Source: Alicyclobacillus sp. (GTDB lineage Bacteria > Bacillota > Bacilli > Alicyclobacillales > Alicyclobacillaceae). From it: DNA of 52,548 bases. The translations under genes and the position numbers were made by a program. The stretch is from assembly GCA_023511725.1 (NCBI GenBank), contig JAIMAY010000021.1:1-52548 (forward strand), read 5' to 3'. Below are positions 7,684 to 12,872 of the stretch, one piece after another (positions within the stretch are counted from its first letter, which is position 1; each line of letters opens with the position of its first letter). The notes under the pieces were generated by a model. That model did not search any database. It was given only the letters and a program-made list of their open reading frames with translations, and was not told the origin of the DNA.

Positions 7684-8964
7684 TCACACAAACTGCTCCA
7701 GCTCTGTGGACCCCGTCAAGGCGGTGGTGGAGGAGGTACCGCCCGACACCACCTGCGCGACCTCGTCGAAGTAGCCGGTCCCGACCTCGCGCTGGTGGCG
7801 GGTCGCCGTGTATCCGTACGCCTCCGCCGCGAATTCCTGCTGCTGGAGTTCGGCGTACGCCGTCATGCCCTGGTCGCGGTAGCGGCGGGCGAGATCGAAC
7901 ATGCTGTAGTTGAGCGTGTGGAAGCCGGCGAGCGTGATGAATTGGAACTTGTACCCCATATCGCCGAGTCTGTCCTGAAACTCCGCAATCTCTCGATCCG
8001 ACAGCTTGCGCTTCCAGTTGAACGACGGCGAGCAGTTGTACGCCAGCAACTTGCCTGGGAACTTTTCGTGGATGGCCTTCGCAAACCGTTCCGCTTCTTC
8101 CAAATTGGGTTCCGAGGTTTCGCACCAGATCAGATCAGCATAGGGTGCGTACGCCAAGCCGCGGGCAATCGCTGCGTCAATGCCGCCCGTCATGCGGAAG
8201 AAACCTTCCACCGTCCGTTCGCCCGTGAGGAACGCCTGATCTCTCGGATCAACGTCACTTGTAATCAGGTGGGCGCCGTTGGCGTCCGTGCGGGCGATGA
8301 GTACGGTGGGAACCCCCATCACGTCCGCAGCAAACCGGGCCGCTATCAGGTTGCGAATCGCCTGCTGGGTGGGAATCAACACCTTGCCTCCCATGTGTCC
8401 GCACTTCTTTTCAGAAGCCAACTGGTCCTCCAGGTGAACACCGGCCGCACCCGCTTCAATCATCGCCTTGACCAGTTCGAACACGTTCAGCGGTCCGCCG
8501 AACCCGGCTTCGGCGTCGGCCACGATGGGCACGAACCAGTCGATTTCTCCGCTTCCCTCCGCGGTTTGGATCTGGTCCGCGCGTTGTAGCGCCTGATTGA
8601 TGCGCTTCACCACATGGGGCACGCTGTTGGACGGGTACAGGCTCTGGTCCGGGTACATCTGGCCCGCCAGATTGGCGTCCGCCGCAACCTGCCAGCCACT
8701 CAGGTAGATGGCCTTCAGGCCCGCCTTGACCTGCTGCACGGCCTGATTGCCCGTGAGGGCTCCAAGGGCCTTGATGTGGTGTTCCGTGTGTAGAAGGCGC
8801 CACAGTTTCTCGGCGCCCAGCCTCGCCAGGGTATGCTCAATCTGCACGGAGCCCCGAAGGCGCACCACATCCTCGGCACTGTACGGCCGTACGATTCCCT
8901 TCCAACGTTCCTCCGACTCCCAGCTCTGTTTCAGTTCGGCGATCTGCTGTTCACGGGTGGTCAC
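7684..8964 (-). CDS. aceA: Isocitrate lyase
   Basis: AceA cleaves isocitrate to succinate and glyoxylate, the first step of the glyoxylate shunt, allowing growth on acetate or fatty acids. The 426 residues match the usual bacterial length. The active-site KKCGHMGGK motif is present, as are the metal-site stretch [19 protein letters not shown], and the substrate-binding SPSFNW. The GTG start is supported by GAGGAGGAA eight bases upstream; an in-frame ATG 42 codons earlier would place the N-terminus inside the promoter region. Malate synthase is not in the window. Two dyads upstream suggest regulated expression. Confidence 0.96.
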
Positions 8965-9056: not shown

Positions 9057-9205
9057 GTCCCGGCGAACGGAAGGCTGTACTTTGTGACAATTTCGTGTCA
9101 AGAATGTAGGTCCATCATGCCTGGCCATGTCCGCGCAGCGCTGGCATTTTTCGCCTGCCAATCCATACTAAGGAGCGTCATCGACTCGAGCTGAGGGTGA
9201 AGTGC

Positions 9206-9352
9206 ATGGTGAAGGACAATCCAAACGAGGGACTGGCCAAGGTCTACTGGGTGATTGGGATCATCGTGATCGGCCTGCTGGTGCTGGCAGGCATTCTGTG
9301 GTGGTACGACGCCTACCTGCTCCATGAGGTGGCCGAGCATGGCGGCCATTGA
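9206..9352 (+). CDS. 48-residue single-pass membrane protein before the quinol oxidase operon
   Basis: This short frame encodes a polar N-terminus (MVKDNPNEGLAKVYW), one long hydrophobic helix (about residues 14-34, Ile/Val/Leu-rich, ending LWWYDAYLL) and a His-rich tail (HEVAEHGGH). The ATG has GAGGGTGAAG upstream, and the stop lies 28 bases before qoxA, so it is probably the first gene of the oxidase transcript. Position, size and topology resemble the tiny single-helix accessory subunits of some heme-copper oxidases, such as the CoxIIa type, but identity is not visible by eye. The coding potential is supported by clean hydrophobic periodicity and spacing. Confidence 0.65.
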   Translation: MVKDNPNEGLAKVYWVIGIIVIGLLVLAGILWWYDAYLLHEVAEHGGH

Positions 9353-9380: not shown

Positions 9381-10271
9381 ATGCCGAACAGATCTGGGCG
9401 GTGGCTGCGTTGGATCGGCTGGCTCGGTGGCTGCCTGGTCGTGACGGGCTGTTCGCCGGAACAGATTGTGGTCTTCCATCCGGCCGGGCCCGTGGCGGCG
9501 ACGGAGGAGCGGCTGATCTGGACAAGCATCGCGCTCGTGTCCGTGGTGGTCGTCCCGGTCATCGCCTTGATGTTTTACATCGTCGCGCGCTACCGGGATC
9601 GGCCAAACAACAATGCGCCATACCGGCCCAAGTGGTCAGAGAGCAAAACGCTCGAGATCATCTGGTGGGGGATTCCCATTGTCATCATCGGTATCCTGGC
9701 GACCTTCACCGTGCGCGATACGTTTGCGCTGACGCGACCGCCGGAGAAGGTGTCATCACCGCTCACCGTACAGGTGACTTCACTCGACTGGAAGTGGCTG
9801 TTTCAGTACCCGGACCACGGCGTTGCCACCGTCAACTACTGCGAAATCCCGGTGGGTCGCCCGGTGCAGTTCATTCTGACGTCCAATGCGCCGATGAACT
9901 CCTTTTGGGTGCCGCAGCTTGGGGGTCAGGAGTATACCATGCCGGGCATGGCGATGCGTCTTTGGCTGCAGGCGGACAAGCCAGGCGTGTACACCGGTCG
10001 AGGAGCCAACTTTTCCGGTCGCGGCTACGCCCACATGACGTTCCGCGTCGTGGCCGTCTCGGATGATGAGTTCAATCGGTGGGCGGCGAAAGTGAAGCAA
10101 ACGGCACCGCCCTTGACCGAAGACGGCTATCGAAAGCTCGTGGCACAGGGCATCTCGCCTGAACTCTCGTTTTCTTCCTATCCGAAGGGTTTGTTTGAGG
10201 ACACCATCATGATGGAGGGTGGCATGTATATGAAGCATGACATGTCCATTCTCGGTCATGAGAAGACGTGA
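9381..10271 (+). CDS. qoxA: Quinol oxidase subunit II
   Basis: QoxA is subunit II of a heme-copper quinol oxidase, exposing a cupredoxin-like domain outside the membrane. The 296-residue protein begins with a lipoprotein signal (VTGC, lipidated Cys24), followed by two transmembrane helices (about residues 48-70 and 90-112) and the cupredoxin domain. The CuA-binding Cys and His residues of cytochrome c oxidases are absent; instead it has NSFWVPQLGGQEYTMPGM and GRGANFSGRGYAHMTF, typical of the quinol-oxidising branch. ATG was chosen for the GAGGGAGGGA site upstream. It is 22 bases before qoxB. Confidence 0.95.
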   Translation: MPNRSGRWLRWIGWLGGCLVVTGCSPEQIVVFHPAGPVAATEERLIWTSIALVSVVVVPVIALMFYIVARYRDRPNNNAPYRPKWSESKTLEIIWWGIPIVIIGILATFTVRDTFALTRPPEKVSSPLTVQVTSLDWKWLFQYPDHGVATVNYCEIPVGRPVQFILTSNAPMNSFWVPQLGGQEYTMPGMAMRLWLQADKPGVYTGRGANFSGRGYAHMTFRVVAVSDDEFNRWAAKVKQTAPPLTEDGYRKLVAQGISPELSFSSYPKGLFEDTIMMEGGMYMKHDMSILGHEKT

Positions 10272-10293: not shown

Positions 10294-12261
10294 ATGCCTG
10301 TCGGGGTACAGAATTACACCACGCACTTTTTCGTGACGGGCGATCCGCTCATCTACGGCGTTGACGTCTCTATCATCCTCGTCAGCCTGGCCATCGTGTA
10401 CGTGCTGACACGGTATCGCAAGTGGGGTTGGCTGTGGCGCGAGTGGCTGACGACGGTGGATCACAAGCGGATTGGCATCATGTATCTGATTGCGGCGCTC
10501 CTGATGCTGTTCCGCGGTGGTGTGGACGGCCTCCTGATGCGAACGCAACTCGCGTGGCCCAACATGCACTTCCTGGAGGCTGAGCATTACAACCAGATTT
10601 TTACGACGCACGGCACCATCATGATCCTGTTCATGGCGATGCCCTTCATCTTCGCCATGTTCAACATCGCGGTGCCGCTGCAGATTGGCGCCCGCGACGT
10701 AGCGTTCCCGTACCTGAACGCCATCAGCTTCTGGCTGTTCTTCTTTGGGGCGCTGTTGTTCAATCACTCGTTTGTGATTGGGGGCTCGCCCGACGCCGGC
10801 TGGACGAGTTACCCACCGCTCGCGGATCTGCCGTTCAACCCCGGCCCAGGCGAGAACTATTACCTGCTGGGGCTGCAGATCTCCGGTATTGGCTCGATTG
10901 CGACGGGGATCAACTTCTTTGTGACCATCTTGAAGATGCGCGCACCGGGCATGACGCTCATGCGTATGCCGCTGTTCTGCTGGTCGGTGCTGGCGGCGTG
11001 TATCATCATCATCTTCGCGTTCCCCGTACTTACGGTGGCGCTTGCGCTGCTGCTCATCGACCGGATCGCCGGCGCACACTTCTTCACGATGTTTGACGGC
11101 GGCAACCCGATGATGTTTGTCAACATGTTCTGGATCTGGGGCCACCCTGAGGTGTACATCGTGGTCCTGCCAGCCTTCGGCATTTTTTCGGAGGTGGTGG
11201 CCACCTTCTCGCGTAAGCGCATCTTTGGCTATTCGTCCATGGTGGCTTCGATGCTCGCCATCGCCGTCATCAGCTACTTTACGTGGGTGCACCATTTCTT
11301 CACGATGGGCGCCGGGCCGGGGGTGAACAGCTTCTTCGCCGTGGCGACGATGATCATCGCCATCCCCACCGGTGTGAAGGTGTTCAACTGGCTGATGACG
11401 ATGTTCCAAGGGCGTATTCGCATTACGACGCCGATGTTGTGGACGCTGGGGTTCATCCCGAACTTCGCCATCGGTGGCGCCACGGGCGTAATGCTGTCAG
11501 TCGCTCCGGCGGATTATCAGTATCACAACAGCTACTTCCTGATAGCGCACTTTCACCAGGTGTTGATTGGCGGTACGGTCTACGGCATGCTCGCGGGCAT
11601 GTACTACTGGTGGCCGAAGATGTTCGGGTTCAAACTCGATGAGCGCTTGGGTAAGTGGGCGTTCTGGTTCTTCAACATCGGTTTCTATGTCTGCTTCCTG
11701 CCGCAGTACCTGGTCGGCTTCATGGGGATGACTCGGCGCGTGTACATCTATCCGCCGGGGCTGGGCTGGGAGATTCCGAACCTCATCTCCACCATCGGGG
11801 CGTATCTGATGGGCGTCGGTTTCATCCTCATCGTGGCGGACGTGGTGTACAGCATCCGCTATGGCGAACGCGACCTCACGGGCGATCCGTGGGATGGCCG
11901 CACCCTGGAATGGTCGCTGTCCTCACCGCCCCCCCACTATAACTTCGCGCGCATTCCGCGTGTGGATAGCCGCGATGCGTGGTGGGAGATGAAGCAGCGC
12001 CGCCAGCGCGGCGAGCCCATGGAGGAACCGGAGCCGCTTCGGCCCATCCATATGCCAAAAAACTCCGGCGTCCCTTTCATCCTGTGTGTGGCCTTTTTCG
12101 TGGCCGGGTTCGGCTTCGTGTTCAACTGGTACGTGTTCTCAGTCATCGGGCTGCTGACGGTCGCCATCTGTCTCTTTCACCGGTCCTTCGACTATGACAC
12201 CGACTACTACATCCCGGTGGAAGAACTCGAGCACCACGAAGCTGCACTGGGGAGGACGTGA
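10294..12261 (+). CDS. qoxB: Quinol oxidase subunit I
   Basis: QoxB is the catalytic subunit, reducing oxygen to water at a heme-CuB centre and pumping protons. In 655 residues all metal ligands are present: His106 and His421 for the low-spin heme, His419 for the high-spin heme, and His284, His333 and His334 for CuB, with Tyr288 in HPEVY as the cross-linked tyrosine. These positions match the numbering I recall for Escherichia coli CyoB. The protein is fully membrane-embedded with an extended C-terminal part after about residue 500, also usual for this branch. The site before the ATG is modest (GGACGTAGG). Confidence 0.97.
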   Translation: MPVGVQNYTTHFFVTGDPLIYGVDVSIILVSLAIVYVLTRYRKWGWLWREWLTTVDHKRIGIMYLIAALLMLFRGGVDGLLMRTQLAWPNMHFLEAEHYNQIFTTHGTIMILFMAMPFIFAMFNIAVPLQIGARDVAFPYLNAISFWLFFFGALLFNHSFVIGGSPDAGWTSYPPLADLPFNPGPGENYYLLGLQISGIGSIATGINFFVTILKMRAPGMTLMRMPLFCWSVLAACIIIIFAFPVLTVALALLLIDRIAGAHFFTMFDGGNPMMFVNMFWIWGHPEVYIVVLPAFGIFSEVVATFSRKRIFGYSSMVASMLAIAVISYFTWVHHFFTMGAGPGVNSFFAVATMIIAIPTGVKVFNWLMTMFQGRIRITTPMLWTLGFIPNFAIGGATGVMLSVAPADYQYHNSYFLIAHFHQVLIGGTVYGMLAGMYYWWPKMFGFKLDERLGKWAFWFFNIGFYVCFLPQYLVGFMGMTRRVYIYPPGLGWEIPNLISTIGAYLMGVGFILIVADVVYSIRYGERDLTGDPWDGRTLEWSLSSPPPHYNFARIPRVDSRDAWWEMKQRRQRGEPMEEPEPLRPIHMPKNSGVPFILCVAFFVAGFGFVFNWYVFSVIGLLTVAICLFHRSFDYDTDYYIPVEELEHHEAALGRT

Positions 12262-12264
12262 GGT

Positions 12265-12540
12265 ATGGAGGCTGTCCACGGAGATCTGCACACCGCGGCC
12301 GTACGCGATGTGCCGCTGGAACACACGACGGAGGACGGTCAACTGCGAATCTTCGGATTCTGGATCTTCATCGTATCGGACCTGATCCTCTTCTCGACCC
12401 TGTTCGCGACGTTTGCCGTGCTCCGAACGCATGTGGCGGGAGGACCCGGTCCGGCACAACTGTTTGATGTGGGAGCGTTCACCGCAGAGACGCTGATCCT
12501 GTTGATTTTCACCGTGGTCTATCTGCCGGGGGTGATGTAG
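12265..12540 (+). CDS. qoxC: Quinol oxidase subunit III, internally deleted
   Basis: Subunit III normally has about 200 residues and five helices; this frame has only 91. The N-terminal part is normal: a polar leader, IFGFWIFIVSDLILFSTLFAT (helix I), VLRTHVAGGPG and FDVGAFTAETLILL (start of helix II). It then jumps straight to IFTVVYLPGVM, which corresponds to the extreme C-terminus of the family (CyoC ends VFTVVYLMGAM). About 110 residues, covering the rest of helix II to most of helix V, are missing in frame, and start, stop and operon spacing are intact. Alternatives are a reduced natural form, a strain-specific deletion, or an assembly collapse. It begins 3 bases after qoxB. Confidence 0.85.
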   Translation: MEAVHGDLHTAAVRDVPLEHTTEDGQLRIFGFWIFIVSDLILFSTLFATFAVLRTHVAGGPGPAQLFDVGAFTAETLILLIFTVVYLPGVM

Positions 12541-12542
12541 AC

Positions 12543-12872
12543 ATGGCGCACACGTCGGAAGGTGCAGCGCGTCACGCAGCGTCCGGGCCGCCCTGGATGC
12601 ACATCATCGGTTTCGTGCTGTCGATTGTTTTGACGCTCGCGGCACTGTGGTTGGTGCTTGGACACGCGATGCGACCGGCCCCGCTGTTTTTCACCATCAT
12701 GGTGCTGGCGGTGCTGCAGATTGCGGTGCAGTTGTTCTTCTTCATGCACATTACCGAGAGTTACGGGCCGGCATGGCACGTTTGGATGCTGGCGCTCGGC
12801 GTTGTGCTGGTCGTTGCCATCGTGGCCGGTTCCATCTGGATCATGACATTCGGCGGCGATGTTGCGTATTAA
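12543..12872 (+). CDS. qoxD: Quinol oxidase subunit IV
   Basis: QoxD is the small assembly and stability subunit of the quinol oxidase. The 109 residues contain three hydrophobic helices with the family pattern (MHIIGFVLSIVLTLAALWLV, FFTIMVLAVLQIAVQLFFFMH and a C-terminal helix). FFMHI after helix II is typical of subunit IV. Its ribosome site (GGGGGTGATG) lies inside the end of qoxC, so the two are coupled. It is the last gene of the operon; hairpins separate it from the convergent transporter. Confidence 0.93.
   Translation: MAHTSEGAARHAASGPPWMHIIGFVLSIVLTLAALWLVLGHAMRPAPLFFTIMVLAVLQIAVQLFFFMHITESYGPAWHVWMLALGVVLVVAIVAGSIWIMTFGGDVAY

Follow-up and report, generated by a model that had tools for sequence, protein, structure and literature searches.

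The qoxC gene of an aa3-type quinol oxidase operon in Alicyclobacillus sp., as assembled, lacks 348 nt of internal sequence, and the oxidase genes on either side of it are intact. The probability that this is a real, frame-preserving deletion, which left a loss-of-function QoxC in one of four redundant quinol oxidase gene sets, can be put at roughly three in four. In the mechanism proposed here, joining at short or no homology would have removed the codons for helices III and IV together with one half each of helices II and V, leaving a two-helix peptide that would most likely be unable to do the job of subunit III. QoxD would still be translatable, since the frame, the stop codon and the short gap to qoxD survive, and the loss would be tolerated through three other full-length qoxC genes. 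The operon would then yield at best a subunit III-depleted oxidase. Most likely, the operon is redundant and lost this gene recently; the case looks like a single deletion event in a dispensable copy and not like a new kind of protein.

The qoxC Remnant

The frame at positions 12265–12540 on the forward strand of the window (the whole 52,548-nt stretch of DNA analyzed here) opens with ATG, closes with TAG and encodes 91 amino acids. Residues 1–80 align with the N-terminus, helix I and the first half of helix II of subunit III proteins of the QoxC/CyoC type, and the last 11 residues (IFTVVYLPGVM) align with the extreme end of helix V. Exactly 116 residues carried by all 13 comparators, comprising 10 relatives and three paralogues from the same genome, are absent from the window protein; the product of the undeleted gene would have been about 207 residues long. 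The original prediction had correctly taken this frame for a QoxC that lost an internal segment without a frame shift; its estimate of about 110 residues is close to the figure measured. It had also proposed that alignment with the QoxC of relatives would locate the breakpoints. Such an alignment places them between 12504 and 12505, where the sequence reads CTG TTG to the left and ATT TTC to the right.

A QoxC protein is expected to be ~200 aa in length and to contain five membrane helices. The remnant falls short on both counts, with 91 residues and two membrane-length helices, which an AlphaFold model of low confidence (mean pLDDT 65.8, pTM 0.43) placed at residues 21–56 and 70–90. Hydropathy also gave two membrane stretches, in agreement with the 91-residue, two-helix product that had been foreseen. 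In position the remnant does conform to QoxC, as it sits between qoxB and qoxD of a qoxABCD operon. The TIGR02897 profile covers it only N-terminally (model positions 2–65 of 190), scoring 50.9 bits against a cut-off of 239.9, a threshold that is exceeded in only 31 of the 59 genomes sampled from the order and that the full-length copies of the same genome also fail to reach. NF007944 matched at model positions 15–83 of 204 with 65.2 bits, and Pfam COX3 gave no match to the 91-aa remnant.

The best PDB match, which involved query residues 15–83, was QoxC of the cytochrome aa3-600 quinol oxidase (6kob chain C, presumably from B. subtilis), matched at its residues 10–78, with a second segment at 188–200 that remained below threshold. 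The aa3-600 QoxC occupies the same place in the qoxABCD operon, but the window QoxC is without 116 internal residues, namely helices III–IV and halves of helices II and V. CyoC, subunit III of the cytochrome bo3 ubiquinol oxidase (1fft chain C), aligned over helix I and into the first part of helix II, and the end of its helix V aligned as a second, sub-threshold segment; unlike the remnant, it is a full-length protein of 204 aa.

Operon Context

The features of the operon are compiled in Table 1. The stop codon of qoxB (12259–12261) precedes the qoxC start at 12265, and the qoxC stop codon (12538–12540) is followed after 2 nt by the qoxD start at 12543, which bears out the claim that start, stop and operon spacing are intact. 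The listed start codon of qoxA is the analysts' choice, the ORF listing giving 9324. QoxB scored 1036 bits against TIGR02882 (cut-off, 1015.5), and motif strings that we take to be the heme and copper ligands and the channel were located in it. QoxD scored 75 bits against TIGR02901, below the cut-off of 85.6. Where columns are conserved at ≥95%, the window proteins departed at 1 of 269 positions in QoxB, at none of 15 in QoxD and at none of 12 in the remnant of QoxC. The operon is predicted to specify quinol oxidation with heme A.

Table 1. Coordinates of the quinol oxidase operon, the qoxC deletion and the adjoining small ORF in the window.
Feature	Position	Strand	Basis or remark
Conserved small single-helix ORF, 48 aa from ATG (GTG at 9197 possible)	9206..9352	+	Directly upstream of qoxA
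qoxA (subunit II)	9381..10271	+	No departure at any of the 66 columns conserved at ≥95%
qoxB (subunit I), 655 aa	10294..12261	+	Above TIGR02882 cut-off; putative motif strings for cofactors and channel
Retained 5' part of qoxC (residues 1–80)	12265..12504	+	Profile, PDB and relative alignments
Deletion junction, 348 nt (116 codons) absent relative to 13 of 13 comparators	12504..12505	+	Alignment and sequence
Retained 3' end of qoxC, encoding IFTVVYLPGVM (second half of helix V), with the stop codon	12505..12540	+	Alignment
qoxD (subunit IV), 109 aa	12543..12872	+	Above Pfam COX4_pro cut-off

General damage to the window was considered as well and found unsupported: a scan of 20 window proteins gave 11 that aligned with a curated enzyme family in one stretch, at full or near-full length. 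For isocitrate lyase this held with NF011645, whereas TIGR01346 matched it in two stretches. An MFS protein matched transporter models over nearly its full length, below cut-off; three proteins gave partial matches below cut-off (to PilM, GspK and wall-binding models) and five gave none.

Deletion or Assembly Artefact

The organism might possess a full-length qoxC from which the assembler skipped 348 bases, an explanation that draws on the draft state of the assembly, with its 76 contigs, and on the presence of four paralogous gene sets that could confuse an assembler. Assemblers join distant points that share a word of k-mer length, usually at least 21 bases. The longest exact word common to the junction arms and the three paralogue regions measured 14 bases, and the longest between the two arms 8 bases, the dividing point for this count lying 3 nt rightward of the actual junction. 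The 120-base junction region found its only full-length match in the genome in itself; the next-best match, in the paralogue on contig C11, extended over 39 bases at 85% identity, and exact matches elsewhere in the genome did not exceed 15 bases. At the breakpoints predicted from relatives, exact homology amounts to ~1 nt, inside an imperfect TGTTGA/TGTTCA pair. The complete or near-complete matches of 11 other window genes also speak against an error of this kind. With no long word shared around the junction, an assembly collapse is unlikely, and the collapse at a short repeat that the original prediction had offered as one possibility is disfavored. Recombination with a paralogue is likewise unsupported by any long shared word. 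A deletion within the cell at short homology fits these sequence features better than a collapse. No exact match to the junction was found among viral contigs, a set from which records of this genome may be excluded.

Distribution of Short QoxC Forms

The sample of the order comprised 59 genomes, 56 of which had QoxC matches, 124 in total, and 119 of these were full length, with open frames of 192–319 aa. The remaining five consisted of the window's own (frame of 92 aa), a pair located at contig starts (G045:C60 and G008:C93) and two weak matches, one in a frame of 207 aa and the other in a frame of 211 aa that is interrupted by one stop. In the class sample of 121 genomes, 94 had matches, and 145 of the 148 matches were full length (frames of 199–386 aa); two were weak, in frames of 199 and 208 aa, with one stop inside. 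Both totals are hand sums of per-genome counts, and the two samples overlap by nine genomes. Among the 124 order and 148 class matches, the window QoxC is the sole short one away from a contig end. A separate, natural family of short QoxC proteins, which the original prediction had named as a finding that would overturn it, is therefore unsupported: the only short form off contig ends in the order sample is the window's, and the class sample agrees. No natural QoxC truncation was reported in the titles and abstract beginnings of the literature searched.

The named relative with the QoxB closest to that of the window (83%) is Alicyclobacillus cellulosilyticus, whose operon includes a full-length QoxC; in a genome of the order sample judged to be that of this relative (G011), all three QoxC matches are full length. 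Among 80 named loci with QoxB, a full-length QoxC lies downstream in 77, two loci (L043 and L081) end at a contig edge, and at one (L058) the QoxC match stopped at query residue 137. In the last of these, from Paenibacillus sp. P25 (about 7954–8630), qoxC seems to be frame-broken: of a full-length query, just residues 21–137 found a match in one frame, and the only listed downstream frame of at least 60 aa is 140 aa long; the break may be a sequencing indel.

Paralogous Gene Sets and Redundancy

Four aa3-type quinol oxidase gene sets are present in one 2.66-Mb genome (G000), represented by the qoxB gene of the window and by contigs C46, C11 and C49, and a more distant subunit I is encoded on C55. 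Each of the three sets outside the window has qoxB, a full-length QoxC frame of 210–214 aa and qoxD, the contig of one (C49) starting inside qoxB. QoxC matches per genome in the order range from 0 to 6, so such redundancy is common in the group. Relocation of the missing piece was rejected, the only QoxC matches in the genome being the three paralogues and the remnant itself. Because three other full-length copies exist, the loss of this one would be tolerable, and the redundancy favors, as far as sequences can indicate, a lost function over a residual one; the original prediction had allowed both a relic and a form that still functions.

The same three full-length proteins raise the prospect that QoxA, QoxB and QoxD of the window operon recruit QoxC from a paralogous set, and the conserved neighbors of the remnant suggest an operon in use, now or until recently. 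The retained part of the window QoxC is just 51–56% identical to the paralogues, and exchange of subunits between the sets is hypothetical, which makes such complementation in trans highly doubtful.

Constraint and Residual Function

All 12 columns conserved at 95% or more that fall within the remnant are kept, as are 15 of 16 conserved at more than 90%. Because these columns are kept, the remnant is probably not an old pseudogene; it may reflect a recent deletion, or may still be under constraint. They also leave room for residual function. In a comparison of terminal branches, loci were taken that had a complete operon and a QoxC match reaching residue 80 (82 loci plus the window), and of these the 67 with a QoxB branch above 0.03 were retained. 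The QoxC remnant had a ratio of 1.54 to QoxB, ranking 64 of 67 against a median of 0.74, as calculated from 55 columns, which are few; QoxA of the window operon was also fast (rank 60 of 67). The long remnant branch hints at relaxed constraint, on the basis of these 55 columns and with QoxA fast as well. The QoxB tree pairs the window with locus L082 in a clade with a support of 18.7, a weak placement.

The remnant could conceivably bind QoxB and support the enzyme as a minimal subunit III. Helix I is retained with its invariant Gly-Phe-Trp and Asp39, the frame is open with a third-position GC of 0.73 (0.83 in qoxB and 0.76 in qoxD), and the AlphaFold model has two helices. Against this stand the low confidence of that model, the lack of any such form in another sampled genome of the order or class, and the loss of nearly invariant parts of helices III–V, including the GTHG.HV and YWHFLD segments. 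Moreover, because helices II and V are antiparallel in the five-helix protein, a composite second helix built from the start of II and the end of V would put the tail on the opposite side of the membrane. A supporting role for the remnant is thus quite improbable, and we would be very surprised by a quinol oxidase that works with a subunit III reduced to two helices, helix I plus a composite II/V helix. Were such an enzyme to exist, little beyond helix I and its acidic residue would be needed.

The subunit III-depleted enzyme used here for comparison oxidizes cytochrome c instead of quinol. One source gives subunits I and II as the smallest unit of a heme-copper oxidase that functions and states that many cytochrome c oxidases are inactivated in turnover once subunit III is removed (PMC8361435), and Cox3 is described in another as helping to prevent turnover inactivation (PMC7762129). 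Nothing usable on QoxC removal in a quinol oxidase was found in the literature searched. By analogy with cytochrome c oxidases, many of which lose activity in turnover without subunit III, a working subunit III is not expected in the window operon, and its product would be expected to be depleted, unstable or unused. In this it would resemble the depleted oxidase (PMC8361435), as its core would be without a working subunit III; that preparation was made in the laboratory, whereas the window case is a genomic deletion that leaves a remnant. If real, the deletion represents a genomic loss of subunit III in an otherwise intact quinol oxidase operon, with three full-length paralogues alongside, and offers a ready-made comparison for the role of this subunit in quinol oxidases.

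A Small ORF Upstream of qoxA

The small ORF ahead of qoxA belongs to a family of products of ~40–48 aa with one hydrophobic stretch and the consensus MKxxANxGLxKVYW...LGAVLWWYDxY. Fifteen members gave no Pfam match at an E-value below 0.02, and the family has no convincing PDB match. A class sample of 151 genomes contained three members, plus two weak matches in frames of 547 and 530 aa. In the order, 28 of 59 genomes have one member each, and it lies beside qox genes in all 28, with 26 members within 2 kb of a qoxB and the other two adjoining QoxA. The product may be an uncharacterized small subunit or assembly factor of the quinol oxidase.
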